Below are positions 1 to 29,045 of a stretch of 33,705 nucleotides of DNA, piece by piece. Position 1 is the first letter of the stretch. Each line of letters starts with the position of its first letter. Made by a program: the position numbers and the translations under genes. The DNA is from Oscillochloris sp. ZM17-4 (GTDB lineage: Bacteria; Chloroflexota; Chloroflexia; Chloroflexales; Chloroflexaceae). Under the pieces are notes generated by a model. The model saw only the letters and a list, made by a program, of their open reading frames with translations, made no database searches and was not told the origin of the DNA. The DNA lies in contig NZ_JAIEWN010000034.1 in assembly GCF_019599295.1 (NCBI RefSeq), forward strand, positions 1 through 33,705, written 5' to 3'.

Positions 1-2755
1 TCGCGGCCAGCAGCGCCCGCTGCGGGTCGCGGCTCTCGCCCGAGCCGACCTCGCCCGGCGGGGTCAGAGCGAAGTCTTCGCCACCCTCTTTCAGGTTCAT
101 CCGGCGCGTCTCCTGGTCCTTCAGCCGGTAGTGGGTCAGCTTCACACCCGAGAGGTCGATCTCCTCGCTCAGCCGGTCGGTCGCCAGCAGCGGGACGAGC
201 AGCCGGTAGAACATCGCCCGCTTCTCCAGGTCGGTGTCGCCGTAGTTGATGATCTGCGAGAGGAAGTCGTACAGCCGCACGAAGCTCGCCAGGTCTTTAC
301 GCACGATCTCCAGCTCGTCCAGACCCTTCTTATCCTTGGCGTCGCGGGCCTCGCGCCAGCGCACCCGGAAGCGCTCGACCGCCGGGGCCAACCCGGCCTG
401 CAACGCGGCCTGCTTGCCCTTGGGGTCGAGGTAGACCTTCACGAAGGTCTCGATCTCGGACTCCGTGTAGAGCCGTGTGTCGTCGAGCTTGGCCTGGAGC
501 GTGTGGATGAGGTTGGGGTCGGTGACGCCGGCCAGCTCGGCGCGCTTGTAGTAGGGCTTGAAGGCGGCCAGGATGTCGTTGGGGTCGTTGACGAAGTCCA
601 GCACGTAGGTGGCGTCTTTGCCCGGCGCGACCCGGTTCAGCCGCGAGAGGGTCTGCACGGCGGTGATGCCGTCCAGCCGCTTGTCCACGTACATCGCGCA
701 GAGCAGCGGCTGGTCGAATCCAGTCTGGTATTTGTTGGCGACGATCAGCACCTGGTAGTCGTCGCCCTTGAAGGCATCGCGGATGTCGCGCCCTTTCAGG
801 CCGGGGTTCATACTGTGCTCGCTGAAGGGGCTTGGCCCGCTCTCCAGGTCGCTCACCTCGCCGGAGAAGGCCACCAGCGCCGCCAGGCCGGCGTAGCCCT
901 GCTGGCGGATGTAGGCGTCAATGGCCAGTTTGTAGCGCACCGCCTCCTTGCGCGAGCCGGTGACGACCATCGCTTTGGCGTGGCCATCCAGCAGCCGCTG
1001 CACGTTCTCGCGGAAGTGCTCGACGATGATCTGGACCTTCTGGCTGATGTTGTAGGGGTGCAGGCGCACCCAGCGCATCAGGCCCTTCATCGCCGCCGCC
1101 TGATCGACCTCGCTCTGGTCGTACTCCTGGCCGTTGTGGGCCAGCCGGAAGGCCAGCCGGTAGGGCGTATAGTTCACGAGCACGTCGAGGATGTAGCCCT
1201 CCTCGATCGCCTGCTGCATGCTGTAGATGTGGAAGGCGACGGGCATGTTGTCGTCGGCCGGCGGGCGACCGGAGTCGGGCCGCCGCCCGAAACGCAGCAG
1301 GGTCTTGGCCTTGGGCGTCGCGGTGAAGGCGAAGAAGCTGATGTTCGGGTGGCTCGCCCGGTCTTCCATCTCGGCCAGCAGCACATCCTCGGCGCTAACC
1401 TCCTCGCCTTCCTGGATCTGCTCGGCTGAGAGCACCTTGCTCAACGCGCTGGCCGCCGAGCCGGTCTGCGAGGAGTGGGCCTCGTCGGCGATCACCGCGA
1501 AGCGGCGTGTGCGCAGGCTGCCCTGCGTGCGGATGGCCTCCAGGGCGAAGGGAAAGGTCTGCAAGGTCACGATGATGATCGGGGTGCGATCGAGCAGGGC
1601 CTTGGCGAGTTGCTCGGACTTCACGCCGGCCTTGCTCTCGATTTTGGCTACCACGCCGGTCTTATGCTCGAACTGGTAGATCGTCTCCTGGAGCTGGGCG
1701 TCGAGCACGGTGCGATCGGTGACGACGATCACGGAGTCGAAGATTTTGGCGTCTTGCGCGTCGTGTAGGCTGGAGAGGCGGTGGGCCAGCCAGGCGATCG
1801 AGTTGGACTTGCCCGAGCCGGCCGAGTGCTGGATGAGGTAGCTCTGGCCCGGCCCCTCGGCCCGCGCCGCGCCCACCAGCGCGCGCACCGCGTCCCACTG
1901 GTGGTAGCGCGGGAAGATCAATGCCTCCTTGACCACCGTGCGCCCCTGCGCGTCCTCGGCGGGCGTCTGCTCCAGGTGGGCGAAGTTGGCCAGGATGTCG
2001 AGCAGGCTGGCCCGCTCTAGCACGCGCTCCCAGAGGTAGCTGGTGCGGTAGCCGGCCTCGTTGGTCGGGTTGCCCGCGCCGCCATCATTGCCCAGGTTGA
2101 AGGGCAGGAAGCGCGTGGCCTTGCCCTCCAGCCGGGTGGTCATCCAGATCTCGTCGGTGCTGACTGCGAAGTGGACGAGGGCGCGGCGCTTGAACTGGAG
2201 CAGCGGCTCGTCGCGGTTGGTGGCCGGGTCGCGCGGCGGTCGGTCCTGGCGGTACTGGGTGATGGCGTCGCGCACGCTCTGGGTGAAGTCGGTCTTCAGC
2301 TCGGCGGCGGCCACCGGCACGCCGTTGACGAAGAAGGCCAGGTCAAGCGAGTCCTTGGCCGCGTTGAGGCTATAGCGCAGCTGGCGCACCACCCGACAGC
2401 GAACCTTGGCGTGGCGGGCCAATGTGGTCGGGTTAAGGCCTTGGGCCGGCTGGAACTGGCACATCTCGAAGCGAGCGCTGACGTGCTTGAAGCCGCGCCG
2501 CAGCACGGCCAGGGCACCGTCCTTGTCGAGCACCTCGGCCAGCCGTTTGAGCACGACCTTGCCGGTGTCGCCGTTGTGCAGGCGGCCCAGCTTGGCCAGC
2601 TCGGTCGGCTGGGTCTCTTCCAGCCAGCCCAGCACGTCCTCGGGGTAGAGCGCCAGCTCACGGTCGTAGCCGTCGCTGCGGCCCTCCAGCCAGCCGTTGG
2701 CCGTCAGGTGGGCCACAACCTCATCCTCGAAGGTGCGCTCGCGATGTTTGGTCAT
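1..2755 (-). CDS. hsdR: Type I restriction endonuclease subunit R (HsdR), 3' end cut by window edge
   Basis: Minus-strand reading frame beginning with ATG at 2755 (MTKHRERTFEDEV) and open to base 1, about 918 residues; HsdR proteins are usually about 1000-1100 residues, so the C-terminus lies outside. HsdR is the ATP-dependent DNA translocase and nuclease of the type I restriction complex. Seen: an N-terminal nuclease region with the E-x-K motif (AELKTDF, E152/K154), a Walker A motif (SAGSGKS, K316), a DEAH box (ADEAH, D424-H427) and later helicase motifs including TGFDQPLLCAMYVD and QTLSRLNR. No stop or frameshift was seen. It is separated from hsdS and hsdM by a secreted-protein gene and a plus-strand toxin-antitoxin pair, which is unusual for an hsd operon, so it may have its own promoter in 2756-2873. 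The identity is secure; activity cannot be judged without the C-terminus. Confidence 0.95.
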   Translation of the reverse strand, partial: MTKHRERTFEDEVVAHLTANGWLEGRSDGYDRELALYPEDVLGWLEETQPTELAKLGRLHNGDTGKVVLKRLAEVLDKDGALAVLRRGFKHVSARFEMCQFQPAQGLNPTTLARHAKVRCRVVRQLRYSLNAAKDSLDLAFFVNGVPVAAAELKTDFTQSVRDAITQYRQDRPPRDPATNRDEPLLQFKRRALVHFAVSTDEIWMTTRLEGKATRFLPFNLGNDGGAGNPTNEAGYRTSYLWERVLERASLLDILANFAHLEQTPAEDAQGRTVVKEALIFPRYHQWDAVRALVGAARAEGPGQSYLIQHSAGSGKSNSIAWLAHRLSSLHDAQDAKIFDSVIVVTDRTVLDAQLQETIYQFEHKTGVVAKIESKAGVKSEQLAKALLDRTPIIIVTLQTFPFALEAIRTQGSLRTRRFAVIADEAHSSQTGSAASALSKVLSAEQIQEGEEVSAEDVLLAEMEDRASHPNISFFAFTATPKAKTLLRFGRRPDSGRPPADDNMPVAFHIYSMQQAIEEGYILDVLVNYTPYRLAFRLAHNGQEYDQSEVDQAAAMKGLMRWVRLHPYNISQKVQIIVEHFRENVQRLLDGHAKAMVVTGSRKEAVRYKLAIDAYIRQQGYAGLAALVAFSGEVSDLESGPSPFSEHSMNPGLKGRDIRDAFKGDDYQVLIVANKYQTGFDQPLLCAMYVDKRLDGITAVQTLSRLNRVAPGKDATYVLDFVNDPNDILAAFKPYYKRAELAGVTDPNLIHTLQAKLDDTRLYTESEIETFVKVYLDPKGKQAALQAGLAPAVERFRVRWREARDAKDKKGLDELEIVRKDLASFVRLYDFLSQIINYGDTDLEKRAMFYRLLVPLLATDRLSEEIDLSGVKLTHYRLKDQETRRMNLKEGGEDFALTPPGEVGSGESRDPQRALLAA

Positions 2756-2773
2756 CAGGCCCTCACCCCCTGG

Positions 2774-2803
2774 CCCCCTCTCCCGCTGCGGCGGGAGAGG
2801 GGG
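2774..2803. repeat. REP-like GC-rich hairpin upstream of hsdR
   Basis: A perfect 13-bp inverted repeat (CCCCCTCTCCCGC and its complement) closes a TGCG tetraloop. It sits in the divergent gap between hsdR and the antitoxin, 19 bases upstream of the hsdR start. Hairpins of the form CCCTCTCCC-N-GGGAGAGGG are common dispersed intergenic repeats in many GC-rich bacteria, which is from general knowledge. It has no T tract, so a terminator role is doubtful; in hsdR mRNA it could hinder translation. Confidence 0.6.
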
Positions 2804-2834
2804 GACGCGATACAACTGTATGTGCTGCGCGATG

Positions 2835-2843
2835 TGGTATGAT
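2835..2843 (+). promoter_or_regulatory. Candidate extended -10 promoter of the toxin-antitoxin operon
   Basis: TGGTATGAT matches an extended -10 element (TGnTATAAT with one change), 31 bases upstream of the antitoxin ATG. No convincing -35 hexamer lies 17 bp upstream, which is tolerable for extended -10 promoters. A strong Shine-Dalgarno sequence (AAAGGAGG, 2859-2866) follows. Confidence 0.4.
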
Positions 2844-2873
2844 TCTGTCCATCGTCTGAAAGGAGGCCCGTCG

Positions 2874-3098
2874 ATGACGGCTGTAACCCTGCGTGAGATC
2901 GATGAGCGCCTGCGGCAGCTGCCGCCCGAGAAGCTCGCCGTGGTCTACGACTTCATCTCTTACTTGATCGAGCGTGACGCCGCTGCGCTACTGGCACAGG
3001 CCGAGCCGGATGCCCGCGATTCGGCCCTCGCCAGCGAGCCGGTGCTGCGCCGCGATTGGGATCGCCCCGAGGAGGATGCCGCGTGGGCGCATTTGTAA
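2874..3098 (+). CDS. Antitoxin (DUF2281/VapB-like) of a MazF/PemK-type pair
   Basis: A 74-residue protein starting at ATG 2874, chosen because AAAGGAGG lies 7 bases upstream; a longer open frame extends further 5' but has no ribosome site. The N-terminal half (LREIDERLRQLPPEKLAVVYDF) resembles DUF2281-type antitoxin N-termini. The tail (RRDWDRPEEDAAWAHL) is the acidic, tryptophan-containing end typical of antitoxins paired with MazF/PemK toxins. It overlaps the toxin gene by 16 bases and is presumably the first gene of a two-gene operon, neutralising the toxin by binding through its C-terminus (known for the family). Its exact family is less sure than its role. Confidence 0.8.
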   Translation: MTAVTLREIDERLRQLPPEKLAVVYDFISYLIERDAAALLAQAEPDARDSALASEPVLRRDWDRPEEDAAWAHL

Positions 3099-3415
3099 AA
3101 GGCGATGTTGTCGTCGTGCCCTTCCCCTTCTCCGACCTCAGCGCCAGCAAGCGCCGCCCGGCCCTCGTGCTGGCCGACCTTAGCGGCGATGATGTGATCC
3201 TTTGCCAGATCACCAGCCAGGCCGCCCGCGACCGCTACGCCATCCCGCTACTTGACGCCGACTTCGCCGAGGGCGGGCTGCGCCAGGCCAGCCACATCCG
3301 CCCAAACCGTCTCTTTACCGCCGACAGCGCCCTCATCCTCTACCGCGCCGGCCACATCAGCGACGCCAAGGGCGCTGAGGTGATCGCGGCCATTCTGGCG
3401 ATCCTCCAGTCATAA
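3083..3415 (+). CDS. MazF/PemK-family toxin (mRNA interferase)
   Basis: The protein is 110 residues when started at GTG 3083, which has GAGGAGG 8 bases upstream and overlaps the antitoxin by 16 bases. The ATG at 3056 would give a longer overlap without a good ribosome site. MazF/PemK toxins are small ribosome-independent endoribonucleases with an SH3-like barrel. Seen: GDVVVVPFPFSDLSASKRRPALVL, the classical N-terminal strand pair with the family's R-P-x-L-V segment, followed by VILCQITSQ and a C-terminal helix (GAEVIAAILAIL). The pair is inserted between hsdR and the secreted-protein gene on the opposite strand, a typical place for an addiction module in a defence island. Confidence 0.9.
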   Translation: MGAFVKGDVVVVPFPFSDLSASKRRPALVLADLSGDDVILCQITSQAARDRYAIPLLDADFAEGGLRQASHIRPNRLFTADSALILYRAGHISDAKGAEVIAAILAILQS

Positions 3416-3431
3416 CATTGCGGTCATTCAT

Positions 3432-6179
3432 TTAGCGCCTGATAAGCGGTAGGTAGACGTGAGCGAGCGGCGGCGGCGCGGCGACCTGCCCGCCCGGCGC
3501 AAGCGTCGTCGCGGTCGTACCATCGCCGGGCAGACTCCCGACCTGCGTGGTGGTCACGGTGGCGTCGAGCGCCTTTGTTCCAGCATTCGTCACCGTAAAG
3601 GCACCATCCGTTCCGATCGCGAAAGTGGAAGCCACACCATCACCATTGGTGACGCAGGCCCCATACTGGCGGCTGTTCTCCGCCGAGACCTCGTCGGTCA
3701 GCGTCTGGCAGTAGCTCCCGTCGGTCGCGGGCGTGAAAGTGGTGGCGCGCGGCGTGCCCTGGATGACCAGGCTGTCGTTCTGGCCACCACTCAGCGATGC
3801 GCCGCCCAGGGTCATGGCTGACCCGTCGCCGAAGGCGGTCAGCGTATAGGGCTCCGTCGCGGCGGCGAGGGTCGTCTGGAGGCCGGCGGCGGGCTGCACG
3901 GTCACGGTGTAGGTCTGGCCGGCGGGCAGATAGTAGGCCTCCGGCGAGGTGGCGTTGGGCTGGTCTGGGTTGAAGCTGAAGTTGACCAGCCGCAGCGCGC
4001 CGGAGATCTCCTGGGTCGCGTCGAGCGCATTCGGGCCGATCTGGTGGCCCTGGCTATCGGTGATCAGCAGGTCAGCGTTCCCATCAATTCCTAGCGTGAT
4101 TCCGCTGTCGTTCGCAGCCAGCGGTGCTGTTGTGGCCTGTGGCAGACCGACGAAGGCTGGGTAGAGCATATTCACCGGCACGTAGGAGAGATGGGCGTTC
4201 CCTGACCAGGTCGTGCCTGCCCACAGCTCATATTGCCAGGTATTCAGGCCGAGATCCACGCTAAGTTGACGGGTCGTGACACCTGGCCAGTTCGGGTCGT
4301 AGATCGATATCGTGCCGGTATTCCCAACCTGCTGGGTGCCATAGGCGACAACCGCGTGACCCGCCCCAGGCACAGAGAAGACCAGGATCGCCACATTGCC
4401 AGCCTGGGTGATCTGCTGGATGGCGCTGAAGGTCTGGGCCGGGGTGTCGCGGCTATGCCGTGAAAGCCACGCTTGGATCTGCACGCTCTGCTGGCGGCCC
4501 TGGTAGAGGAAGATATAGTCCTTCACATTGCTCTGGCCAACGTGTACAGCGCCGCTTATTACCGGGGGCAGATCGCCAATCTGGGTGAAGCGCCGGTAGT
4601 AAGGATTGAGGATCTGTTGCTCTGTCGTATCGTTCAAGTCGAGGTAGCGCAACGTGCTCACCGCCGCCATCCCGAAGCAGTCGCCGCCGCCGACCCCGCG
4701 ATAGGTCTGGCTGCGGAAGTAGGTCTGCGCACCCAGGCGAGGCTGTCCGTTCGGCAGCTCCATGCTGTTGGCCGGGAAGGTGCGCTTAAAGATATCCCAG
4801 CTCGCGCCGGGGATGGTGTCGCCAGGGGTGTAGCCAAAGTTGTAGAAGGTCTTTGCGTAGTTGAAGCCGTCGAGGGTAGGGTCGTAGGTGCCCTTGAGGT
4901 TGATATGGGCTGTGTCGCTATTTACGCCGCCGACACTGTTGCTGACCCGTACCCAATAGGCGGTATCGACGCTCAGGGACGGCGTGGTGAATGTGCGCGC
5001 CGTCGCGCCAGCGACTGGTTTGCTCGTGTCGCCGCTGATACCCTCGTACCACTGGTAGCTGAACGGCGCGGTGCCCAATCCAACTATCACGTCGAGCATC
5101 ACCGTGGTACCGGGGCGGATGCGCTGGTTGAGGGGTTGTTCGCTGATAGTCAGCGGTGAGCCCTGGCCCTCGCTATAGCGTTGCAAAGTGCCATACGTTG
5201 CTACATAAATAAGGCCGGAAGTCGATGGGTCGATTGCTAGTGACGTTATGGAATTTGCCACAAAGCCGCCGTAGGCGCTCCAGGTGGCGCCTCCATCTGT
5301 GCTGCGATAAACAGTAGATGATCGATCGACAGCATAGAGTGTTGAGGGGGTACTCGGGTCAAAATGAACCGATACCACCTCGCCCGTGATGCCCTGGGAG
5401 GAGGACGACCAGGTCCCGCCACCATCGGCGCTCCGGTAGGCTCCCAGCTCCGTGGCGGCAAAGATAATGTCTGGATTTGTCGGGTGAAACGCGAGTTGCG
5501 AAATCTTCGGGGCGCCAGGTAGCGCTATTGACGGCCCCCATGTCGTACCACCATCAGTGCTGCTCTGAATAATGCCATACCATCCACCAACAATGATACG
5601 AGTTGGTAGGGTTGGATGAACGGCAATATCATTGGCTGCTGCATTCGCTCCTACCTGAGACCAGCTTGCGCCGCCATCTTGAGTACGGTAAATGAGGCCA
5701 GCGCTTAGTACATAGGCTGTCTGTGAGTTTGCGGCCTCGATATCGGTATGCCCTCCTTCGGGAAGCACTGCTCCGTCAGCGCGACTCCAGGTCGTACCGC
5801 CATCAATGCTGCGAACCACGAACGGTTGCCCCCATACGATGTTGGTATTGTAGAGGGTGAGGGGTTGTGTCGGCGCTGATATGAGTTGGGTCGATCCACT
5901 CTGGCCGGTGTTTAGATGCGACCACGTTGCGCCACTATCGATCGAGCGGTACACACCGTCATCCGCTCCTACTATAAGGGTCGATGAGTTGTGTGGGTCA
6001 ACAATAACCGTTTTGATATTTGTCGCTGGCGTCTTGATCGCTGTCCAATTGCCTGTCGCTCGCACCTGGGTTGGCCATGCTGGCGTGGTTAAAAGCAGCG
6101 CACATATGAGGAACAGCATGTTGTTGCGAAATTGTGCGGCAAGCCGAAATGTCTGAAGACTGTTCTTCCAGATAGGCAT
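3432..6179 (-). CDS. Secreted BNR-repeat / Ig-like / papain-fold cysteine peptidase-like protein with YLPL tail
   Basis: A 915-residue protein; ATG 6179 has GAGAGG about 10 bases upstream. A signal peptide is visible (hydrophobic MLFLICALLLTTPAW then PTQVRA), so it is exported. Residues ~45-330 contain six Asp-box (BNR) motifs of the form S-x-D-x-G-x-T-W, as in sialidase/sortilin-like beta-propellers. An Ig-like domain follows (~345-430, ending WVRVSNSVGG). Residues ~440-680 look like a papain/C39-type peptidase fold: GGDCFGMA (C501), GHAVVAYG (H608) and YDPNW (D628) would form a Cys-His-Asp triad. The last residues are VYLPLIRR, a C-terminal pattern I associate with exported Chloroflexota proteins. 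It lies between hsdS and hsdR but has no evident link to restriction. The peptidase assignment is inferred from motifs; substrate unknown. Confidence 0.75.
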   Translation of the reverse strand: MPIWKNSLQTFRLAAQFRNNMLFLICALLLTTPAWPTQVRATGNWTAIKTPATNIKTVIVDPHNSSTLIVGADDGVYRSIDSGATWSHLNTGQSGSTQLISAPTQPLTLYNTNIVWGQPFVVRSIDGGTTWSRADGAVLPEGGHTDIEAANSQTAYVLSAGLIYRTQDGGASWSQVGANAAANDIAVHPTLPTRIIVGGWYGIIQSSTDGGTTWGPSIALPGAPKISQLAFHPTNPDIIFAATELGAYRSADGGGTWSSSSQGITGEVVSVHFDPSTPSTLYAVDRSSTVYRSTDGGATWSAYGGFVANSITSLAIDPSTSGLIYVATYGTLQRYSEGQGSPLTISEQPLNQRIRPGTTVMLDVIVGLGTAPFSYQWYEGISGDTSKPVAGATARTFTTPSLSVDTAYWVRVSNSVGGVNSDTAHINLKGTYDPTLDGFNYAKTFYNFGYTPGDTIPGASWDIFKRTFPANSMELPNGQPRLGAQTYFRSQTYRGVGGGDCFGMAAVSTLRYLDLNDTTEQQILNPYYRRFTQIGDLPPVISGAVHVGQSNVKDYIFLYQGRQQSVQIQAWLSRHSRDTPAQTFSAIQQITQAGNVAILVFSVPGAGHAVVAYGTQQVGNTGTISIYDPNWPGVTTRQLSVDLGLNTWQYELWAGTTWSGNAHLSYVPVNMLYPAFVGLPQATTAPLAANDSGITLGIDGNADLLITDSQGHQIGPNALDATQEISGALRLVNFSFNPDQPNATSPEAYYLPAGQTYTVTVQPAAGLQTTLAAATEPYTLTAFGDGSAMTLGGASLSGGQNDSLVIQGTPRATTFTPATDGSYCQTLTDEVSAENSRQYGACVTNGDGVASTFAIGTDGAFTVTNAGTKALDATVTTTQVGSLPGDGTTATTLAPGGQVAAPPPLAHVYLPLIRR

Positions 6180-6285
6180 GGTCTGACCTCTCAGGTTAGT
6201 AATGCTATTTCGCCTTTGACTGCACCTCGATCCACTCCTGGTTATTCCCTATCAGCGCTGCGGCCAATATCTCGCGCAGAGCCTC

Positions 6286-7626
6286 TCAGCGCGCCCAGGC
6301 GCCGTTGTCGCGATACCCCCGCACGTCGATCTGCCCCGTGACCGCCGCCGCCACCAGCGCCGTGCGGTGCTCGCGCAGCACGGCGATCATCTCCTGCGCC
6401 TTGGCGATCAGGGTGTCGATGTGGGTGGTTTCTCGATCTAGATAGTCTGCAATCACCGTCTGTTCGGAAATCGGAGGTAGTGTAATGTACTGTTCCTTTA
6501 TGTCTTCTGCATGTACATTATGATTGGCACCTCCGTGAAGTGATCTCAGAAGTCCTTCTTGAAAATTCTGCGACTTAAATGAGTACCTTAGGAACTCAGT
6601 ATACGCATTAAACCTGAAACGTATTAAGTATGAAGCAAATACTGATCGTTCAGGATATTGGACTATGCCGAATCGCCCGATAGTTCCGCTGCGTGCAAAT
6701 AAGAAATCGCCCTGACCAACACCGAAGGCACCTTCATTATCCGGTGTCACCTGAACAAAAGGCATGTTGCTAAAGTTAATATTGGCAAAGTCGTCAATAT
6801 CTGTAATTCTTATAAGTTTCACGCCCTCGTCTATATATGATTGCTCAGTATAATATCCTTGCTTATGTTCAATAGTAATTCTTCGTGTCTTTAATACCTC
6901 CCAATGCGCCGGCACCTCCCCAAGCCACGGCACGCCGCTGTCCCGCATCGGCGCGGCGGGGTCGAGGCCCTTCGTCACGACGTGGCTGATCAGCGCGCGG
7001 CGCTTCTCCTGGAGCGTCGCGATCAGCGCCTCCTGCTTCGCCACCAGCGCGTCGATCCGAGCCGTCTCCGCGTCGAGGAAGGCGGCGATGGCGCGCTGCT
7101 CGGCGAGGGGAGGCAAGGCAATTGCAAAATTCTCAATAAAATCCGCAGGTACCCGTTTTTGCCCACCTGCTCCATACATTGCAGCTTCGCCTTGCTCATG
7201 GAAACCTGATGAGCGCGTTAGATGAAACATGAAAGCGGCATCTATCTCCGGCCCAGCGCGTAGGACATGCAGCTCAGTGGTGCCTAATCCGATCCCATTG
7301 TGGAGGTTTCGGCAAAGCGCCCCTTTACCATTCTCAAAACAGGGGGTGATTTTTGCTACCAGTACATCATGATCTCGAAAATAGGTGTACCCCCCTCCAA
7401 CATCGGCGAGTGCGCGTAGCTCGGACGCTTGAAGACTCCCATCCTCGCCAATAGCTTCCATTGGCACGAAGGAGACAAGGGTATCGCCGGGGATCGACTG
7501 TGTTTCCGACCGAAGAGGGTTGATCTGGCAGACACGTCGCAGCCGTTTTGCATTCCAATGGGCAGGGATGTCTCTCAGCCACTCAATGCCTGTGTCACGG
7601 TATTCCGGGTAGCGCGGGTAGCTCAT
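6286..7626 (-). CDS. hsdS: Type I restriction specificity subunit (HsdS)
   Basis: A 446-residue protein with the usual two target-recognition domains (TRDs). Each half opens with the same kind of segment (GIEWLRDIPAHW near residue 14; GVPWLGEVPAHW near 232). Each TRD is followed by a conserved spacer helix beginning PPLAEQRAIAAFLD (~172) or PPISEQTVIADYLD (~387). HsdS binds the bipartite DNA target and bridges HsdM and HsdR. The ATG at 7626 overlaps the stop of the TOPRIM gene as ATGA, indicating translational coupling. Bases ~6440-6900, encoding TRD2, are visibly richer in A+T than the rest, suggesting a recently exchanged recognition domain. The following 106-base gap to the secreted-protein gene has no clear terminator. 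Confidence 0.94.
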   Translation of the reverse strand: MSYPRYPEYRDTGIEWLRDIPAHWNAKRLRRVCQINPLRSETQSIPGDTLVSFVPMEAIGEDGSLQASELRALADVGGGYTYFRDHDVLVAKITPCFENGKGALCRNLHNGIGLGTTELHVLRAGPEIDAAFMFHLTRSSGFHEQGEAAMYGAGGQKRVPADFIENFAIALPPLAEQRAIAAFLDAETARIDALVAKQEALIATLQEKRRALISHVVTKGLDPAAPMRDSGVPWLGEVPAHWEVLKTRRITIEHKQGYYTEQSYIDEGVKLIRITDIDDFANINFSNMPFVQVTPDNEGAFGVGQGDFLFARSGTIGRFGIVQYPERSVFASYLIRFRFNAYTEFLRYSFKSQNFQEGLLRSLHGGANHNVHAEDIKEQYITLPPISEQTVIADYLDRETTHIDTLIAKAQEMIAVLREHRTALVAAAVTGQIDVRGYRDNGAWAR

Positions 7627-8279
7627 GCCTGCACCTCCTGGGCGGCGCGCAGCGCGGCGATGGCGGCGGCGGTATCATCGCGCAGGCGACGCCAGGCCGC
7701 TAGCTGCTCCAGGGAGCCACCGAGCGGCAGTTCCTCAATCAGCTGCTGGCGACGCTGGCCCATACTCTGCCTGAAGCTCCTGAGGCGCTTGCCGGCTAGC
7801 GGCTGGGCGGCGGTCAGCAGCGCGGCCTCCAGGCGCTCCTTCGGGCGGCTGGTCTGCTCGATCCGGTTGAGCGGGGGCAGATTCAGTGGCTCGCGCCCAT
7901 TGGGTCGGCCCGCCACCCGGCGGATCGCCGCCTCGTCCGTCAGCAGCCACGCCTCGGTCTCGTGGATCGGCACCACTGCAACATGCGCCAGATTGATCGC
8001 GCTCGCGGCCACCGCCCGCATAATCTCGCTGTGGCGTGGCTCAGGATCATCATTGTCGGCATCGCGGTGAACAAAATAGAGGTTGGCCAACGGATTCAGA
8101 CGATGCGCCGCGCGTAGCCGCAGCACCATGTTGTGACCGACCGGCACCTCTAGACGCGCGAAAGGCGGCACCGATCCGCTCGCCTCAGTGGCGCCGACCT
8201 GGATGCAGAGGTTTGCCAAGTGCTCCACGAGCCCATGCTCGGTGGTGCCCTCACCGATCAAGAGAAACTGCACGCGCAT
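7623..8279 (-). CDS. DUF4276-like TOPRIM protein, partner of the adjacent ATPase
   Basis: A 218-residue protein. The N-terminus FLLIGEGTTEHG holds the single glutamate (E10) and YFVHRDADNDD the D-x-D (D73, D75) of a TOPRIM-type metal site; IHETEAWLL (~105-113) is a segment typical of DUF4276 proteins. TOPRIM proteins of this kind are predicted nucleases that act with an ABC/SMC-type ATPase, as in OLD-family and PARIS-type defence pairs (established for those families, inferred here). Its start directly follows the stop of the ATPase gene (8280) and its stop overlaps the hsdS start by 4 bases, so it is firmly inside the hsd operon. PARIS AriB belongs to a different DUF (DUF4435), so this is related in plan and not a confirmed member. 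Confidence 0.82.
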   Translation of the reverse strand: MRVQFLLIGEGTTEHGLVEHLANLCIQVGATEASGSVPPFARLEVPVGHNMVLRLRAAHRLNPLANLYFVHRDADNDDPEPRHSEIMRAVAASAINLAHVAVVPIHETEAWLLTDEAAIRRVAGRPNGREPLNLPPLNRIEQTSRPKERLEAALLTAAQPLAGKRLRSFRQSMGQRRQQLIEELPLGGSLEQLAAWRRLRDDTAAAIAALRAAQEVQA

Positions 8280-9734
8280 CTAGCCTAACCCTTCGACAAG
8301 CGCATCGAGCTCAAAGTCTGGAAGCTTTAACTGGGCGTTCTCCGGTGCCGCGAGGTAGTCGATAATCGTGCTTAGGCTAATCGCCGCCCGATCCTGGCGT
8401 GCGCGCCATGTGCCATTAAGCGGGCGAAAGCGCAGCGTTCGCACTGCCGCACCGTCCTCGCCACGTATCTTTACCTCCTGAGCGAAAAGAAGATTATCGG
8501 GGTGCTGCAGCTGGACGAAGGCGGGTGAATGTGTCGCGAGGATGACCTGGCGCAGCGGGTTCTCTGCGCCTGATGCCTCACGTGGATCGACCGCGAGTGC
8601 CTGGAGCAGCGCGGTCATCTCGCCCATGCGCGCCGGGTGGATGCCATTTTCCGGCTCCTCAATGCAGATCAGCCCATGCGCCTCCGGGTCAGCTGCGAGC
8701 ACCGCCAGAGTCAGAAAGCGCAGTGTGCCGTCCGACAGCGCAGCCGCCGGCAGGCGTACGCCGCTACGCTCCTGGGCCACAACCGTCAACATCTGGCGCA
8801 CGTCATCAACCTCAACCTCAATTGAACTGATCGGGACGAGCCGGGCCAGCCGATTCGCAATATCGGCATAGATATTGGCGGCGTCATCCCCTGCCTTCTG
8901 GGCCCGGGTTGCCAGACGGTAAAGGGTTGCCGGAATGTGGCCGCCGGCCCCCGTGATCGCCGCCGGTGTTTGGAAGCGATCTGAGCGGCGCATGGCCGAT
9001 GGCTCTAGAGCCAGGAAGAGCCAGCTCTGCATCTCACGGCGCGCCGCGAGGATCGTTGGGGTGGTAGAGGTGTTTGATGTGCCGACAATCGTTCGCGGCG
9101 CGCTGCTGGCAGGCGCAACTTGGCCAGGGCCACGCGATCCTCCGTCCTGGTGGACGAGAATCTCGGTCTGGCCGTCAGACGCCTGCTTTGTTGAAATATA
9201 CCCCGAGTGCTTTCTGCGCTTATTCTTTACCACCGCTGAGCGAAAGAGCTGCGCACTGTGTGGAAATCTGAGCCTACTCGCCGCCTCGCCCTCGGTAATG
9301 TAATTGAGGTGTTCGGCCAGCAGCACGAGGCGACCGAGGGCGCCGTGCTGATCCGGCGGCTCATAGCCTATCTGCACTTCATAGCGCAGAAACGTGGAAG
9401 AAGCCTCAGTGGAGCGCCCAAAGTCGTCGCGCACCAGCGGGTCGACGATCATCTCAGCAGCTATAGAAAAGTGCAGTTCTTCATGATTACGGGCCACACT
9501 TTGCGTATCACGATAAAAGAGATCGCGCAGATCTCCGGTCTCAATATCGCCGTCACGGACACGCAGGGCAGCCTCTACAAGCGTATGGTCTGCCAGTAAC
9601 GCAAGAAAGCGAATGGCATCAAAGAGATTCGACTTGCCGACACTATTAGGGCCGGCAATACATGTCAGCGGGCCAAAATCGACGGTGACACCTATCAGGT
9701 TTTTAAATCCATCTACTTCGAGACGTGTCAACAT
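8280..9734 (-). CDS. AAA (OLD/RloA/AriA-like) ATPase in the hsd operon
   Basis: A 484-residue protein starting at ATG 9734 with AAGGA 8 bases upstream. Seen: the N-terminal MLTRLEVDGFKNL strand typical of SMC/RecF-like ATPases, Walker A GPNSVGKS (28-35), a signature-like region AAALSDGTLRFLTLA, Walker B LICIEEPENGIHP (E359/E360) and a switch histidine in ATHSPAFVQL. It lacks a C-terminal TOPRIM domain; that activity is supplied by the separate gene immediately downstream, with no gap. This split resembles two-gene OLD-like systems and the restriction-linked rlo genes described in type I loci. The gene lies 43 bases downstream of hsdM and is probably co-transcribed with it. Family is secure; the role (phage sensing or back-up abortive defence) is inference. 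Confidence 0.88.
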   Translation of the reverse strand: MLTRLEVDGFKNLIGVTVDFGPLTCIAGPNSVGKSNLFDAIRFLALLADHTLVEAALRVRDGDIETGDLRDLFYRDTQSVARNHEELHFSIAAEMIVDPLVRDDFGRSTEASSTFLRYEVQIGYEPPDQHGALGRLVLLAEHLNYITEGEAASRLRFPHSAQLFRSAVVKNKRRKHSGYISTKQASDGQTEILVHQDGGSRGPGQVAPASSAPRTIVGTSNTSTTPTILAARREMQSWLFLALEPSAMRRSDRFQTPAAITGAGGHIPATLYRLATRAQKAGDDAANIYADIANRLARLVPISSIEVEVDDVRQMLTVVAQERSGVRLPAAALSDGTLRFLTLAVLAADPEAHGLICIEEPENGIHPARMGEMTALLQALAVDPREASGAENPLRQVILATHSPAFVQLQHPDNLLFAQEVKIRGEDGAAVRTLRFRPLNGTWRARQDRAAISLSTIIDYLAAPENAQLKLPDFELDALVEGLG

Positions 9735-9777
9735 AGCGATAGTCCTTATGTAGTGCCTGCTGGGGGCTACTGCTATT

Positions 9778-11520
9778 CTACTTGTTTCTCGTCATCGGCT
9801 CCTTGACGATCGCGCCCAGCAGCTCGGTGATCTCCGCGCCGAGGCGCTGGAGGTCGGCGTCGATGGCCTCCAGCGGGCGCGGCGGGGTGTAGGCGTAGAA
9901 GTGGCGGGTGAAGGGGATTTCGTAGCCCACCTTGGTCTTCTCCCCGTCCACCCAGGCGTCGGGCACGTGCGGCAGCACCTCGCGGGCCACGTAGGCGTCC
10001 ACGTCATCCTTCAGCGGCACGTTCTCGGTGTCGCGCAGGCTGCTGTCGGCCTTCGGCTGGCCCTTGCGGTCGCGTTCAGGCTTGCCCTTGGCGTCATATA
10101 GCGGGCGCTCGACCGTGATCGTGCGGTAGCCGAAGTCGTCGTTGTCGAAGATTCTGCTGTGCTCGCCCGCCTCGAAGACCCCGTAGAGCTTCACGATCCG
10201 CTCGATGTCGGCCTCGCCCAGCTCCTTGCGCTTGCTGCCCAGGCTCTTGCGCATCTTCACAAAGAAGCTCGCCGCGTTGATCAGCTGGATCTTGCCCCTG
10301 CGCTCGGGGGCCTTGTGGTTGCTCAGCACCCAGATATAGGTGGCGATGCCGGTGTTGTAGAACATGTCGGTGGGCAGGGCGACAATCGCCTCCAGCCAGT
10401 CGTTCTCGATCACCCAGCGCCGGATCTCGCTCTCGCCGCTGCCCGCGCCGCCGGTGAAGAGCGGCGAGCCGTTCAGCACGATCGCCACCCGGCTGCCACC
10501 CTCCTTCGCCGGGCGCATCTTGCTCAGCAGGTGCATCAGGAAGAGCAGGCTGCCATCGGAGACCCGCGGCAGACCGGGGCCGAAGCGGCCGTCGTGGCCC
10601 TTCTGCTTATGCTCTTTGCGCACCGCGTCCTCGACCTTCTTCCACTCGACGCCGAAGGGCGGGTTGGAGAGCATATAGTCGAATCGCTGGCCGGCGTGGC
10701 CATCGTGCGAGAGCGTATTCCCGCAGATGATCCGGTCTACCTCATAGCCCTTGATCAGCATATCGGCCTTGCAGATCGCGTAGCTCTCCTCGTTCAGCTC
10801 CTGGCCGAAGATGCTCAGCCGGGCATCGGGGTTCATTGCGTGCAGGTGCTCTTCGGCCACCGCGAGCATGCCGCCGGTGCCGGCCGCCGGGTCGTAGATG
10901 CTGCGCACCACGCCGGGCTTGCTCAGATTTATATCGTCGGGAGTGAACAGCAGATCGACCATCAGCCGGATCACCTCGCGCGGCGTGAAGTGCTCTCCAG
11001 CGGTCTCGTTCGAGAGCTCGGCGAAGCGGCGGATCAGCTCCTCGAACATCATGCCCATGCTCTCGTTGGAGACCGCTGCCAGGCTGAGGTCGATCGCGGC
11101 GAAGCGGCCGACCACCTGGTAGAGCAGGTTGGCCCCGTCGAGCTTGGCGAGCTGCTTCTCAAACTCATAGCGCTCGAAGATATCGCGCACGTTGGGACTG
11201 AAGCCGGCCACATAGTCGAGCAGGTTCGCCTTGATGCCGTTGGCGTCGCCCAGGAGCGTGGGGAAGTCGAACTTCGAGGCGTTATAGAAGCTGTAGCCCG
11301 CCGCGCGGGCGAGGAAGAGACTCACGTCGAGGCCGCTGTCCTTGCGCTTCGCGTGCTCGGCCAGCACCGCGCCCTTGGTCTGCGCGAGCACCCCGTCGAG
11401 GCGGCGCAGCAGGGTGAAGGGCAAGATCACCTTGCCGTAGTCGGACTGCTTATAGTCGCCGCGCAGCAGCTCGGCGATCGCCCAGACCAGGCCGGCATTG
11501 GCGGTAGGGGTAGAAGTCAC
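9778..11520 (-). CDS. hsdM: Type I restriction-modification DNA methyltransferase (HsdM)
   Basis: A protein of 580 residues if started at GTG 11520, which has GAAGGA 6-7 bases upstream and gives the usual HsdM N-terminus ([28 protein letters not shown]). The open frame reaches 11685, but the added proline/alanine-rich segment looks non-coding. HsdM makes N6-methyladenine using S-adenosylmethionine. Seen: N-terminal helical HsdM_N domain, SAM-binding motif DPAAGTGG (D210-G217) and catalytic NPPF (N286-F289). It is the first gene of the minus-strand operon hsdM, ATPase, TOPRIM, hsdS. All key residues are present, so it is probably active. Confidence 0.95.
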
Positions 11521-12057
11521 AGTGAATCCTTCAGACAATGCAGCGGCGCGGGGCGCAGGAACGCCTCGAAGAGAAGATATGGCGGCAGGGGGCGGGCGGC
11601 ATGGCGCAGCGGCGTGAGCGGACGGGAGATCATTGGCGGCCCCTGGCGGCAGTGGCGCCGGCGCGGCATTGCGCGGGCGCTGCACTGGGCCGGGCCAGGA
11701 GCACCTTGCGGGGGGCGCATGGGGGTGCTACAATAGCCAAGCACAGCACAAACGAATATCGTGTGACAGAACCCACTCACAGCTTGCCGGCGTCGGGTGG
11801 GTTTTGTGTTGCTGGCGACAAGTATAGCACGTCCACGCCACCGATTACCAGTGAACGGATCTTTAGAAACGACAACACAGACATATAAGCAGTTCCTCAA
11901 TGTATACCTGCATCCAAGAGTGTGCTGTTGTCTGTCGCCCACATATGCTATGCTGTGCGTACACAGCGAAGCGATACAAAGCGCATGTGAATCGCATGTG
12001 GCGCTGTAGCTAAACCACGTCGCACACGAACGTCCACAACAAGAAAGGATGGCTCAA
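11521..12057. other. Intergenic region between divergent hsdM and the Phd-type antitoxin
   Basis: No credible gene was found. The stretch must carry the hsdM promoter (minus) and the antitoxin promoter (plus). A weak stem (AACCCAC at 11770-11776 with GTGGGTT at 11797-11803) is followed by TTTTGTGTT and could be a poor terminator reading rightwards. The right third is less GC-rich and holds the operator-like palindrome listed separately. Confidence 0.5.
11952..11967. promoter_or_regulatory. Operator-like palindrome upstream of the Phd-type antitoxin
   Basis: GCTGTG-CGTA-CACAGC is a perfect 6-bp-arm palindrome about 90 bases before the antitoxin start. It directly follows TATGCT (11946-11951), a possible -10 element. 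A direct repeat CGCATGTG occurs twice just downstream (near 11983 and 11995). Phd/YefM antitoxins repress their own promoters by binding palindromes, so this is a reasonable candidate, but only by position. Confidence 0.35.
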
Positions 12058-12411
12058 ATGCCGACCCGAGCAAACCTGAACCTGAATGTCGATCTCCAAC
12101 GAGGCGTCGTTCCCATCTCCAAGGCGGCATCATCGTTGGCGGCGCTGATCAAGCGCGCCAACACAACTGGCCAGCCGGTCATCGTGACGCAGAAGGGATA
12201 TCCGACCGGGGTGCTGCTCCCGATCGGGATGTTCAGCGCCCTGAAGGACATGGTCGAGCATCAGGGTGAGCCGGAGCCGACGTTTGAGCCAGAGACCGCT
12301 GACGCGATCGGGGATGCGCTGGGCGCGTACGAATCACCACCTGCCGTCGAGGACGCCGCGCCGCAGGAGACCACCGCCCTGAAGCAGCGGCGGCGCAAGC
12401 GTACCGAGTAA
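12058..12411 (+). CDS. Orphan Phd/YefM-family antitoxin-like protein
   Basis: A 117-residue protein. ATG 12058 is preferred to ATG 12049 because AAGAAAGGA lies at a proper distance only for the former. Residues ~18-60 (VPISKAASSLAALIKRAN, then GQPVIVTQKGYPTGVLLP) match the Phd/YefM DNA-binding fold: 'SKAxxxLxxLI', then a strand reading 'PVIVTQxGxPxGVLL'. The C-terminal half is acidic and proline-rich, ending in a basic QRRRKR stretch, unlike short antitoxins. No RelE/Doc-type toxin follows; a strong terminator closes the gene 45 bases downstream. It is therefore a solitary regulator or an antitoxin that lost its toxin. Family fairly sure, role open. Confidence 0.75.
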   Translation: MPTRANLNLNVDLQRGVVPISKAASSLAALIKRANTTGQPVIVTQKGYPTGVLLPIGMFSALKDMVEHQGEPEPTFEPETADAIGDALGAYESPPAVEDAAPQETTALKQRRRKRTE

Positions 12412-12455
12412 ACCGAGGTCGTCGCCTAACTACCATCACTTCGGCCGCAGATCAC

Positions 12456-12494
12456 ACGCGCCGCCCACACGGGCCGGCGCGTTTTGCATTTTTT
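12456..12494 (+). terminator. Rho-independent terminator after the Phd-type antitoxin
   Basis: An ACGCGCCG/CGGCGCGT stem is continued by CCC/GGG around an ACAC loop with one bulged C. It is followed by TTTTGCATTTTTT. It lies 44 bases past the antitoxin stop, in the right orientation. Confidence 0.8.
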
Positions 12495-12548
12495 GGCGAC
12501 GGATACGTACGGGGGAAGGCACGGGAAGCGAGTTCGCAGACCCCTTTT

Positions 12549-12606
12549 ATATGCGAAGTTAGCCCTCACCCACACCGCAGTGCCAGGCCATGCCGACTTC
12601 GCATAT
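12549..12606. repeat. 11-bp inverted repeat, 36-bp spacer
   Basis: ATATGCGAAGT at 12549-12559 is exactly complementary to ACTTCGCATAT at 12596-12606. A third related GCGCATATGATCG occurs near 12646. This could be a regulator site or the ends of a small element; no gene inside. Confidence 0.5.
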
Positions 12607-12863
12607 GATAGGGAGTGCCCCCTTTTTCGAGGTCGTTCCAGCTGCGCATATGATCGACACCTGGAGCGCGCATGCCAACACCAATCACGCGGGGGGAATC
12701 GGGGGCGAACTCAGCCCCCCGATAGGCACATCACACAGTTTGACAACGAAAAGCAGTGTCGCGACGAGAGGCGCAAGGGGTGCGGTGCTATAGAGGATGT
12801 CTGCCTCCGGCCACTGCGCGGTGTAAACGCGGTGTGGGCGCGGCCAATGTGTAAAGAGTTTGT

Positions 12864-12953
12864 GCCAGGGATGCCCAGGCGGCTTTGGGGATGCCCGGAG
12901 CATGTGCCTGCTGATGCCTTGGGCATCCTTAAAACTGCCTGGGCATCCCTGGC
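12864..12953. repeat. Nested perfect inverted repeat
   Basis: GCCAGGGATGCCCAGGC (12864-12880) is a perfect complement of 12937-12953. Between them lies a second pair, GGATGCCC (12889-12896) and GGGCATCC (12921-12928), so four copies of a GGATGCCC-like word are arranged forward, forward, reverse, reverse. The structure could form a long hairpin or cruciform. No coding function is evident. Confidence 0.75.
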
Positions 12954-13025
12954 GATGACAGCAAGCAATGCCCCCGGCTGCCCGACAGTTGCCAGAATTC
13001 GCTTCCGTGACCGGGCACAGAATCA

Positions 13026-13063
13026 GCACGCCCTGGCGCGATACAGATCGCGCCAGGGCGTGC
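13026..13063 (-). terminator. Very stable hairpin at the 3' end of the minus-strand unknown operon
   Basis: A perfect 17-bp stem (GCACGCCCTGGCGCGAT and complement) closes a 4-base loop. It ends 17 bases beyond the stop codon at 13080 of the minus-strand gene. It has no T tract, so it may act as an mRNA 3'-end stabiliser or a factor-dependent terminator. Confidence 0.55.
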
Positions 13064-13079
13064 GAGGGTTTGGATCGGG

Positions 13080-13595
13080 TCAGCGGGAGAGGAGTGTCAG
13101 GCAATGATCGAGTGTTCCCTTCTCCAGCATGCGTCCGGCCTCATAGGCTCGCCACTCGTTGGAGTCGAGGCCCTGCCCGGTCACCGCGAGCCAGCGATAT
13201 GCAAATTCACGCCCGATTGCGCGCTGGATCTGCTGGAGCCGGCGGCTATCCGGCGCCACCCAGAGCGGGAGCGGGGCCAACCCGAGTTTTGCCCGACGTC
13301 AGACATCAGGCGAAGGGTACCAGGAGGCGCGACGGCGCAGGCCCTCCGGAGGGATACCGTCATCAAGCTCGATCATCAGCGTGGTGCGATGATAGATTTC
13401 CTCACGGAGAATCGTCGGCATCCAGGGGATCGCGCCGGCTGGCATAATATCTGCCGCATCCACCCACTGATGGATCGTTACGAGCGCCTCGGCCCGGCCC
13501 ACGGCCCGTTCGGGGTTGATCGCGGGCTCGCGGCCGACGTAGAGGCCGGCCAGCTGCGGCGTGCCGTGGTAGATCGCGAGCAGCACCGCTTTCAT
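13080..13595 (-). pseudogene. Unknown protein, interrupted by an in-frame TGA
   Basis: ATG 13595 overlaps the upstream gene's stop as ATGA, and the frame reads 99 residues (MKAVLLAIYHGTPQLAGLYV...WYPSPDV) to a TGA at 13299-13301. The same frame then stays open for another ~72 residues (RRAKLGLAPLPLW...LTLLSR) to 13080, where a strong hairpin follows. One open frame across a single stop suggests a nonsense mutation in a ~171-residue gene; two separate genes (second from TTG 13280) or readthrough are less likely alternatives. I recognise no family. The upstream neighbours also show decay, which supports the pseudogene view. Confidence 0.45.
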
Positions 13596-14125
13596 GCCGC
13601 CCACAAGCGCACGCGGGAAGCGCCGCGCAGGATCGCGAAGCGGGCCATGACGATGAGATCCTCCAGTTCAATGTGGAGAAACCCCTCGGTGAGATATGAG
13701 TCGTCAAAGGGCATCGCGCTGCTGGCGGCTGCGACGGCCGCAACGAGCGCAGGGTCAGTCGGTGTGTCAGCTGGCCCAAGCGCATCGTAGAGCGCCTGGA
13801 GCGCGTGCAGCATCACGACGGGTGTCGTCCATGCGCGCTCCCGCACGGCGTGGCACGCGGCGATTGCTGCCTGGGCCGATTCCAGGATTGCCGCCGGGAT
13901 CGCCGCCAGATCTGCGCGCTGCGTGAACACATACTCCAGGGCCGCATCGATATCGCCCAGATCGTCGTCCGCGACCTGGAGCAGCGGCGTCAGATCCAGG
14001 GCCAGGACGCGGGCCAGTGCCTGGGTGATCGCCGGCTCCGCGAGCCAGCAGGCCGTTCCATTCGTGCATCGCCAGGTGCCCAGTGGCGGCAAATGCGTAT
14101 CATCTTGAAGAAACAGCGCGCGCAT
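13592..14125 (-). CDS. Hypothetical protein in a decaying three-gene operon
   Basis: A 177-residue, alanine- and leucine-rich, mostly helical-looking protein (MRALFLQDDTHLPPLGTWRC...). ATG 14125 has GAGAAG about 8 bases upstream. It follows the truncated metallophosphoesterase by 9 bases and overlaps the next gene by 4 bases, so the three were one transcription unit. No motif or signal peptide was recognised. Coding is supported by operon geometry and absence of stops, not by homology. Confidence 0.5.
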   Translation of the reverse strand: MRALFLQDDTHLPPLGTWRCTNGTACWLAEPAITQALARVLALDLTPLLQVADDDLGDIDAALEYVFTQRADLAAIPAAILESAQAAIAACHAVRERAWTTPVVMLHALQALYDALGPADTPTDPALVAAVAAASSAMPFDDSYLTEGFLHIELEDLIVMARFAILRGASRVRLWAA

Positions 14126-14134
14126 CGCGTCTTC

Positions 14135-14268
14135 TCACAGATCGATCACGAGCGGCGGGTTGATCGGCTCGTCGTGGCGCGTGCAGCTGCTGGCATTGAG
14201 GAACGTCGTTCCCCCGTCGGTCATCCGGCCATAGCCCTCATGAATGTGGCCATAGATGGGGTGATCGT
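14135..14268 (-). pseudogene. C-terminal remnant of a metallophosphoesterase
   Basis: The minus frame ending at TGA 14135-14137 reads IYGHIHEGYGRMTDGGTTFL, then NASSCTRHDEPINPPLVIDL. The GHIHEGYG metal-binding motif and the 'NASxC...NPPLVIDL' ending are typical of calcineurin-like phosphoesterase C-termini. Upstream of about 14268 the similarity ends and an in-frame stop appears (PYRNISRKK preceded by TAA). The N-terminal ~75% with the other metal ligands is missing, so this is a 5'-truncated gene. It was once the first gene of the operon that continues to 13080. Confidence 0.6.
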
Positions 14269-14502
14269 ACTTTTTTCGGGAAATGTTCCGGTAGGGTTAA
14301 AAGCGTTAAAGAAGCTTTTAGCGCATTGGGACGCCTTTTGTAGCGAATACGCCCTATCTCGGTTCTGTTCCGTCTCGTCGGCCGGTGTTACTTCGTCGTA
14401 GAATCATGGACGCAGAATCAGCGTCTTTCGCGTCCTGCATACCTGCTACCGCGTATCCTCGTCCTCATGGTCGGCTGCGGTCGCTCCGCGCAGCGGCCGG
14501 CG

Positions 14503-14590
14503 CTAGCGCAGATCCCAGGATGGCGTCGGCTGAAACTGGTAGCGGCCGAGCAGATTGATGTGCGCCCAGCCCATGTGTGATGCCCCCCTC
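14503..14590 (-). pseudogene. Probable C-terminal remnant of a Tn3-family transposase
   Basis: The minus frame ending at TAG 14503 contains SHMGWAHINLLGRYQF. This resembles the 'SPxxWxHINLxGRYEF' ending of Tn3-family transposases, recognised from memory only. Upstream residues do not continue the similarity. It lies next to the truncated phosphoesterase, so a transposon event may have created both breakpoints. Confidence 0.4.
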
Positions 14591-14626
14591 ATCCACCGCA
14601 AAATCCTTTTCCATTGCCCCCAACAT

Positions 14627-14645
14627 GTCAACGGGAAGTCAACGG
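14627..14645 (+). promoter_or_regulatory. Tandem GTCAACGG direct repeat, 11-bp period, upstream of the response regulator
   Basis: GTCAACGG at 14627-14634 is repeated exactly at 14638-14645, one helical turn apart. It is followed by a GATACT -10-like hexamer at 14653-14658. OmpR/PhoB-family regulators bind such 11-bp-spaced tandem half-sites, so autoregulation is likely. Confidence 0.5.
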
Positions 14646-14713
14646 CGGGGTCGATACTCTTCCATGTGGCGACCATCAGGGATGGTTTTACTGGTATGCC
14701 CATGGAGGTTTGT

Positions 14714-15517: not shown

Positions 15518-15522
15518 GGTGC

Positions 15523-15539
15523 CTTAACGCACGCTTAAC
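15523..15539 (+). promoter_or_regulatory. Tandem CTTAAC direct repeat, 11-bp period, upstream of the YD-repeat gene
   Basis: CTTAAC at 15523-15528 recurs at 15534-15539. The shared T(C/T)AAC core and the 11-bp spacing match the repeat upstream of the response regulator. It precedes the candidate promoter at 15555-15583. Confidence 0.45.
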
Positions 15540-15583
15540 ACAATTGATCGTCAATTGTCAGTCTTTCCTGCCATCCATACGCT
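15540..15583 (+). promoter_or_regulatory. Candidate promoter and palindrome for the YD-repeat gene
   Basis: A perfect palindrome ACAATTGA-TCG-TCAATTGT (15540-15558) overlaps TTGTCA (15555-15560). With a 17-base spacer this is followed by TACGCT (15578-15583). The -35 is good and the -10 poor, as expected for an activator-dependent promoter. The hairpin could alternatively end the regulator transcript, but no T tract follows. Confidence 0.35.
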
Positions 15584-15706
15584 GAAAGTGTGGTACTATC
15601 TGCCTCGGCCTTTGCCCGTTATTTGCCCGGATATATACGCGGACGAATCGAGGAGCGCGGATTGACCCGCGATCGTCTCCGATTTCACATTCTTTCGGGA
15701 GTTCCT

Positions 15707-23338: not shown

Positions 23339-23339
23339 T

Positions 23340-23567: not shown

Positions 23568-23578
23568 ATTCGACTTTA

Positions 23579-28805: not shown

Positions 28806-28919
28806 CGTGTTCTGTGTCCTGTATTTCGGCGTCAGTACAGGCGTGTCGCTGCTCCCGCTTCGGATAGCGCAGTACAGCCCCGTCTGAGCGAGCGTAGCGA
28901 GCGAATCGCGATTTTTTCA
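28797..28919 (+). repeat. Conserved block after VR1 (copy 1 of IMH-adjacent repeat)
   Basis: Nearly identical to 32319-32442. It includes a fully shared ~40-base run after the stop codon and ends in GATTTTTTC. CCTGTA (28818-28823) can pair with TACAGG (28836-28841). DGR variable regions are followed by a homing-initiation site and often a hairpin, so this is the likely place for it. Confidence 0.7.
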
Positions 28920-28993: not shown

Positions 28994-29045
28994 TTCTGGT
29001 GGTCTGTGGCATTGTGGCGAATGACCTATATTCCGGGAGATGCCC

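Follow-up and report, generated by a model that had tools for sequence, protein, structure and literature searches.

An ATPase-TOPRIM gene pair of the HEC-01 kind inside a type I restriction-modification operon of Oscillochloris sp. ZM17-4, a likely passenger rather than a built-in guard

The first 33.7 kb of contig C111 (NZ_JAIEWN010000034.1; 33,705 nucleotides, the whole stretch analyzed and hereafter “the window”), from the 6.69-Mb genome of the phototrophic bacterium Oscillochloris sp. ZM17-4, carry a type I restriction-modification (R-M) operon in which an ATPase gene (8280..9734) and a TOPRIM gene (7623..8279) stand between hsdM (9778..11685), encoding the N6-adenine methyltransferase subunit, and hsdS (6286..7626), encoding the specificity subunit, all on the minus strand. 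On balance, we favor the reading that this pair is an autonomous module of the HEC-01 kind (Hma-embedded candidate 01 of PADLOC) carried as cargo in the hsdM-hsdS junction, since most relatives of the pair have surroundings other than hsd genes, an intact copy stands alone in a close relative, related junctions are free of the pair, and its history is unlike that of hsdM. As the pair usually lies elsewhere and is able to stand alone, a passenger is more likely than a built-in guard of the R-M complex. An initial annotation of the window had described an OLD-like ATPase and a DUF4276-like TOPRIM protein within a compact type I R-M operon, and families, motifs and coordinates agree with that description; the 0-base junction between the two genes, the 4-base overlap of the TOPRIM gene with hsdS (−4 junction) and the coordinates it gave are all exact. 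The end of hsdM lies 43 bases from the ATPase start. Both flanking subunits were clearly identified: HsdM by Pfam N6_Mtase (211.5 bits), HsdM_N (75.4 bits) and PADLOC MTase_I (892 bits), with a likely GTG start at ∼11520 by comparison with orthologues, the open reading frame (ORF) being longer, and HsdS by Pfam Methylase_S (64.9 bits) and PADLOC Specificity_I (403 bits).

Both proteins of the pair match the HEC-01 families over nearly their full length; the window differs from HEC-01 in being embedded in type I R-M. The ATPase (484 amino acids [aa]), of the OLD/SMC-head ABC type, scored 315 bits against HEC-01A (PDLC04184; 2.2e-94, residues 1-463 on model positions 1-459 of 464) and 91.8 bits against Pfam AAA_21, matched OLD (6p74) in profile comparison (E = 8e-11), and yielded a structural model (mean predicted local distance difference test score [pLDDT] of 72) that matched Septu PtuA, SMC and Rad50 heads in Foldseek. 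The TOPRIM protein (218 aa), a putative nuclease, scored 82 bits against HEC-01B (PDLC04210; 1e-23, residues 7-213 on model positions 8-215 of 217) and 25.8 bits against Pfam DUF4276, under the curated cut-off of 30.2. Motif conservation was assessed on an alignment of 81 TOPRIM rows (the window plus 80 survey loci) and 80 ATPase rows. ATPase residues 28-36 (9627..9653, minus strand), which we take to be Walker A, include K34, found in 76/80 rows with 4 gaps, and residues 357-364 (8643..8666, minus strand), presumably the Walker B region, include E359 and E360, each found in 80/80 rows. Position 10 of the TOPRIM protein is D or E in 79/81 rows (2 gaps), while D73, D/E75 and E109 occur in 81/81, giving a TOPRIM-type DxD motif (D73, D75) at 8055..8063 on the minus strand. 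The protein carries the conserved acidic set E/D...DxD expected of a TOPRIM nuclease, and the motif positions fit a TOPRIM domain. Its structural model (mean pLDDT of 85) gave zero Foldseek matches at E ≤ 0.001; fold searches led to mixed Rossmann-like folds that included OLD TOPRIM domains (6njx and 6nk8, Z = 6.3 over 164 and 172 residues, with many unrelated folds at equal or higher Z). As these searches pick out no TOPRIM nucleases specifically, it is motifs and families that support the assignment. The matches listed for the fold searches did not include AriB, which carries no weight either way. A sequence search for PDB relatives of the TOPRIM protein returned none that was convincing, and no mention of DUF4276 turned up in a literature search.

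To place the pair in a wider context, a species-genome collection was scanned with a TOPRIM profile, yielding 206 confirmed relatives; locus counts refer to the best 80 of these 206. An ATPase ORF adjoined the TOPRIM gene in 79/80 loci, and in L188 the C-terminal stretch of an ATPase alone was recognized beside it. Hsd homologues were recognized in 4/80 loci, namely three from Oscillochloris in the window's own clade (L118, L119 and L120) and one from Myxococcales (L142), which is a lower bound; none was recognized by phmmer in the available flanks of the remaining 76, the search having used few Hsd queries on contigs of which several are short (58/79 loci have ≥1.5 kb of flank on both sides). 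Co-directional neighbors within ≤200 bases included Pfam N6_Mtase in 2/29 upstream proteins and Methylase_S in 2/36 downstream proteins (L142 being taken in its hsdS frame, with its hsdM left out), and the other families listed, 25 of 52 upstream and 25 of 64 downstream, were varied (for example MFS, aminotransferase, IMPDH, tRNA synthetase, UvrD and ResIII). When 8 of the 80 genomes were searched in full for N6_Mtase, none was found within the survey stretches, assuming that contig numbers correspond to record suffixes. Within the window's phylum, any HEC-01B match was found at 35 loci; 23 of these also match the TOPRIM model used in our survey, whereas the other 12, weak for the most part, do not. 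Type I genes were close to the pair in two, the window and L059. An ATPase-anchored search of 235 Myxococcota genomes gave 18 matches, L142 and 17 further loci, and type I genes were recognized beside the ATPase in 0/17 of the latter. No confirmed TOPRIM relative was found on viral contigs; by ATPase, one phage record and four plasmid records were retrieved. At L122, L124, L133 and L134, neighbors of HsdM or HsdS size were identified as glycosyl hydrolases and MFS transporters rather than Hsd proteins, and two further candidates for R-M genes were left uncounted: the −4-overlapping neighbor at L161, a ResIII helicase without HSDR_N, and a 1436-aa neighbor at L141 with no Pfam match. At two survey loci (L131:8574-12915 and L146:8571-12899) the HEC-01-type ATPase and TOPRIM genes are followed after ∼74 bases by a gene for a UvrD-like helicase (87 bits against the GajB model in L131), an arrangement resembling a split Gabija.

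The closest relative of the pair, in Candidatus Oscillochloris fontis (L047, identical to L117), is intact without this R-M system. Its ATPase and TOPRIM proteins are 82% and 76% identical to those of the window, and DNA similarity between the two covers 7611-9750, which is to say the two genes. The surroundings are of the housekeeping kind, with gltX and genes for an amylase, an alpha/beta hydrolase and a Mur-ligase-type protein among the neighbors; no hsd remnant was found in 19.9 kb, and the best HsdM match in O. fontis is 37% identical. Some close relatives have pairs with 67-82% protein identity to this solo copy inside their hsdMS genes. In trees, the solo copy nests within the embedded clade, with a support of 93 for the ATPase, 97 for the TOPRIM protein (in another arrangement) and 76 for both jointly. 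Such nesting suggests either that the solo copy probably left an hsd operon or that this site received pairs repeatedly. Pairwise dN/dS ratios (nonsynonymous to synonymous divergence, NG86) among four copies were 0.07-0.09 for the ATPase and 0.08-0.22 for the TOPRIM gene, with zero stop codons.

The pair and hsdM also differ in how their relatives are ordered. For hsdM, L100 is closer to the window (85.9% identity) than to L101 (80.3%), and the reverse held for the ATPase (73.3% versus 84.1%) and the TOPRIM gene (72.8% versus 82.0%). Synonymous divergence between the window and L100 points the same way, at 0.53 for hsdM, 1.55 for the ATPase and 0.95 for the TOPRIM gene. When topology was judged by site counts on quartets, the pair favored L100+L101 (139 versus 38 and 30), and hsdM with outgroup L102 favored window+L100 (62 versus 41 and 22); in the hsdM tree, L101 joins L102 (support of 95). 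By exchange or insertion, the pair has thus probably moved separately from hsdM; this speaks against obligate co-adaptation, although not decisively.

HsdM orthologues at 80-87% identity were present in 4 relatives (61 genomes searched; the same 4 were recovered among 158 genomes of the class), and not all of their junctions hold the pair. In G412 (L102, same hsdM subfamily), ∼350 bases separate hsdM from the start of hsdS, and the pair is absent; this junction (L102:618-977) contains 26-nucleotide (nt) inverted repeats 252 nt apart, resembling a miniature inverted-repeat transposable element. In G347 a different small ORF follows hsdM before the contig ends. Remoter hsdM and hsdS genes (L104-L107 and L268) overlap directly without the pair, and in G288, of the Oscillochloris group (L109:8309-12552), the gene that comes after a remoter hsdM, and overlaps it by 4 bases, encodes a 703-aa GmrSD-type protein. 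A decayed copy of the pair, an ATPase piece adjoining a TOPRIM tail, was observed in G375 (L266:969-1583), and G302 (L267) holds two ATPase pieces with no TOPRIM match.

Several observations weigh against the pair being mere cargo. The four-gene order and the 0/−4 junctions of the window are identical in G400 (L100) and G411 (L101, in which hsdS is split over two ORFs), and L119 shows ATPase-TOPRIM-hsdS as far as its 3-kb contig reaches; the four-gene arrangement recurs more than would be expected by chance. Pair-like genes also adjoin type I genes in the myxococcal L142, in the order hsdM-hsdS-ATPase-TOPRIM (HsdM 541 bits, HsdS 288 bits), and in L059 (841-6376), a weak and remote member, where an hsdR-type gene lies ∼55 bases past the TOPRIM-side ORF, hsdS comes next, and hsdM stands ∼7 kb away from the ATPase. 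The hsdR of L059 was missed by phmmer and seen only by Pfam, so that the Hsd counts given above are lower bounds. A BREX locus of a Myxococcota genome (L260:1-9346) also holds a HEC-01-type pair, with brxC (1768 bits) on one side and pglX (1439 bits) on the other. Pairing itself is looser when viewed from the ATPase side, with a TOPRIM match in 11/17 of the further Myxococcota loci and none in 6/17. Regarding selection and history, dS is high (0.95-2.8 for most copy pairs) and the dN/dS values are pairwise rather than specific to the solo branch, while the hsdM quartet with outgroup L103 did not separate the alternatives (45 versus 47 and 19). Finally, a search of 398 Pseudomonadota genomes for MAD3, the ATPase of the MADS system, returned 3 loci over the cut-off (14 at E ≤ 1e-30), and 3/3 of those over it have the order methyltransferase-MAD3 ATPase-MAD4-MAD5 (HsdS); the window ATPase family is homologous to the MAD3 family over most of its length (hhalign E = 4e-37). 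In favor of the initial annotation, which had suggested surveying hsd operons for such pairs, type I contact does recur (L142 and L059); Hsd homologues were recognized in 4/80 loci, again as a lower bound. Two further features of these loci were observed. L142 carries a second, different HEC-01A-like ATPase downstream of its pair (10572-11993), and at the Myxococcota ATPases without a nearby TOPRIM match (L252, L256, L257, L258, L259 and L263) another effector may stand in.

The likeness to MADS extends to the gene order, methyltransferase-ATPase-small TOPRIM-like protein-HsdS, which the window shares. In the three MADS loci PADLOC scored mad4 at 27.5, 50.8 and 56.7 bits and mad5 at 135, 74.7 and 112 bits; in one of them (L213) mad6 follows, and the best PADLOC model for the methyltransferase is type II, with mad2 second. 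The window TOPRIM family gave a weak match to MAD4-like families (69.8% probability, E = 4e-5), with ExExW and PKE motifs in common. Judged by homology and gene order, the same kind of module occupies the same place in the window and in MADS. This might mean that HsdM-HsdS sets or reads a self mark and that the ATPase-TOPRIM pair is an effector of the same complex, with HsdR as its alternative or partner; we regard such integration as unlikely, though worth keeping in view. Besides the shared order and homology, the kept junctions of the embedded clade and the recurring contact with methyltransferase systems (L142, L059 and L260) speak for it, and the context of L059 weighs in the same direction. 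By score, however, the window is not MADS: MAD2 reached 54.4 bits against a cut-off of 720 and MAD3 130.8 against 420, PADLOC found no mad4 match in the window at E ≤ 0.01, and a Pfam scan of 7 window ORFs showed no kinase. Unlike the mad2-mad3-mad4-mad5 core, the window has hsdR nearby; the intact solo copy also speaks against integration, as do MAD3/MAD4-like pairs that occur without a methyltransferase match in the available flank. A broader proposal, that methyltransferase-specificity operons are functional slots into which ATPase-TOPRIM modules are recruited repeatedly, with the methyltransferase complex as self/non-self sensor and the window as a minimal MADS-like system retaining HsdR, would draw on the type I clade of the Oscillochloris group, MADS, L142, L059 and the BREX locus L260; it too is improbable on present evidence.

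The initial annotation had suggested that the pair may guard the R-M complex or require its expression, and had likened it to PARIS. In such a guard, of the PrrC or PARIS kind, the type I complex would hold the pair inactive or primed until a phage anti-restriction protein made it fire. There is precedent in PrrC, whose gene sits within a type IC operon and which is set free once phage blocks that system (PMC3874165 and PMC3710099, in excerpt), and in PARIS, described in an excerpt of PMC12839542 as OLD-ABC plus TOPRIM; the TOPRIM-hsdS overlap also links the genes. The window indeed resembles PARIS (AriA-AriB) in having an OLD-type ATPase and a separate TOPRIM protein. The AriA model, however, scored 91.5 bits on the window ATPase, far under the 315 of HEC-01A, and AriB was absent from the 12 PADLOC matches at E ≤ 0.01, the TOPRIM protein giving no match to it, so the PARIS-type reading finds no specific support. 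No HEPN or PrrC domain appeared in the Pfam scan of the window ORFs. Homologues lying mostly outside R-M loci had been named by the initial annotation as counting against its proposal, and this is the distribution found (76/80 without a recognized Hsd); together with the intact solo copy and the discordant histories of pair and hsdM, it leaves dependence on this R-M complex unsupported and a guard unlikely. It is least probable, and in our view very much so, that the pair is a neutral insertion without function that is decaying: broken copies do exist in relatives (G375 and G302), but the window copy is intact with complete motifs, and dN/dS among the four copies is well under 1.

Under the preferred reading of an autonomous HEC-01-type cargo, the OLD-type ABC ATPase would sense an infection cue and then license the DUF4276-like TOPRIM protein, whose predicted nuclease activity would probably cleave phage or host nucleic acid. 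The R-M operon would supply expression and location, with transcription probably shared, and the ATGA overlap may couple translation of the TOPRIM gene and hsdS; pair and R-M system would then act in parallel. The anti-phage function of the pair is itself a prediction. Defense or uncharacterized genes in type I loci have been described before, including PrrC (EcoprrI), Campylobacter rloA-rloB, TgvAB and DarTG2 (PMC3874165, PMC3710099, PMC2928727, PMC11411939 and PMC12255303, each in excerpt); like the window, these have genes inside a type I R-M locus, but they belong to other protein families (presumably so for RloA and RloB). TOPRIM-linked OLD-ABC modules are also reported from BREX in an excerpt of PMC12839542, the same domain pairing in a methyltransferase system, although there the host system is BREX and not type I R-M. 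The window therefore joins a known kind, and what it usefully adds is the contrast between embedded and solo copies among close relatives, together with the link to the MADS order. This contrast offers a natural comparison on the question of whether defense genes embedded in restriction operons are there as passengers or as components, and the common gene order and homologous ATPase connect the listed candidate HEC-01 to the MADS core, which bears on the function of MAD3-MAD4. The pair differs from Gabija in being two separate genes rather than an ATPase-TOPRIM fusion, and one UvrD query found no UvrD helicase in window positions 1-19900.

The remainder of the window completes the type I set, HsdM, HsdS and HsdR all being identified. 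The initial annotation had not mentioned the hsdR frame (2..2815, minus strand; HSDR_N, SWI2_SNF2 and T1R_D3-like), which lacks its 3′ part at the contig start. A role of the pair as substitute for an absent HsdR was ruled out, as hsdR is present downstream. A promoter scan gave 1 site versus 2.3 expected. Between hsdS and hsdR lies a gene for a 915-aa BNR/Ig-repeat protein (3432-6179, minus strand), and L101 has a comparable gene after its hsdS (616-3399). Between that gene and hsdR, a PemK/MazF-type toxin is encoded on the plus strand (3056-3415), preceded by a small ORF. Elsewhere in the window, 21839-24261 and 27812-32441 contain internal duplications of ∼78-80% identity within and between large ORFs (e.g., 28293-28918 versus 31812-32441).

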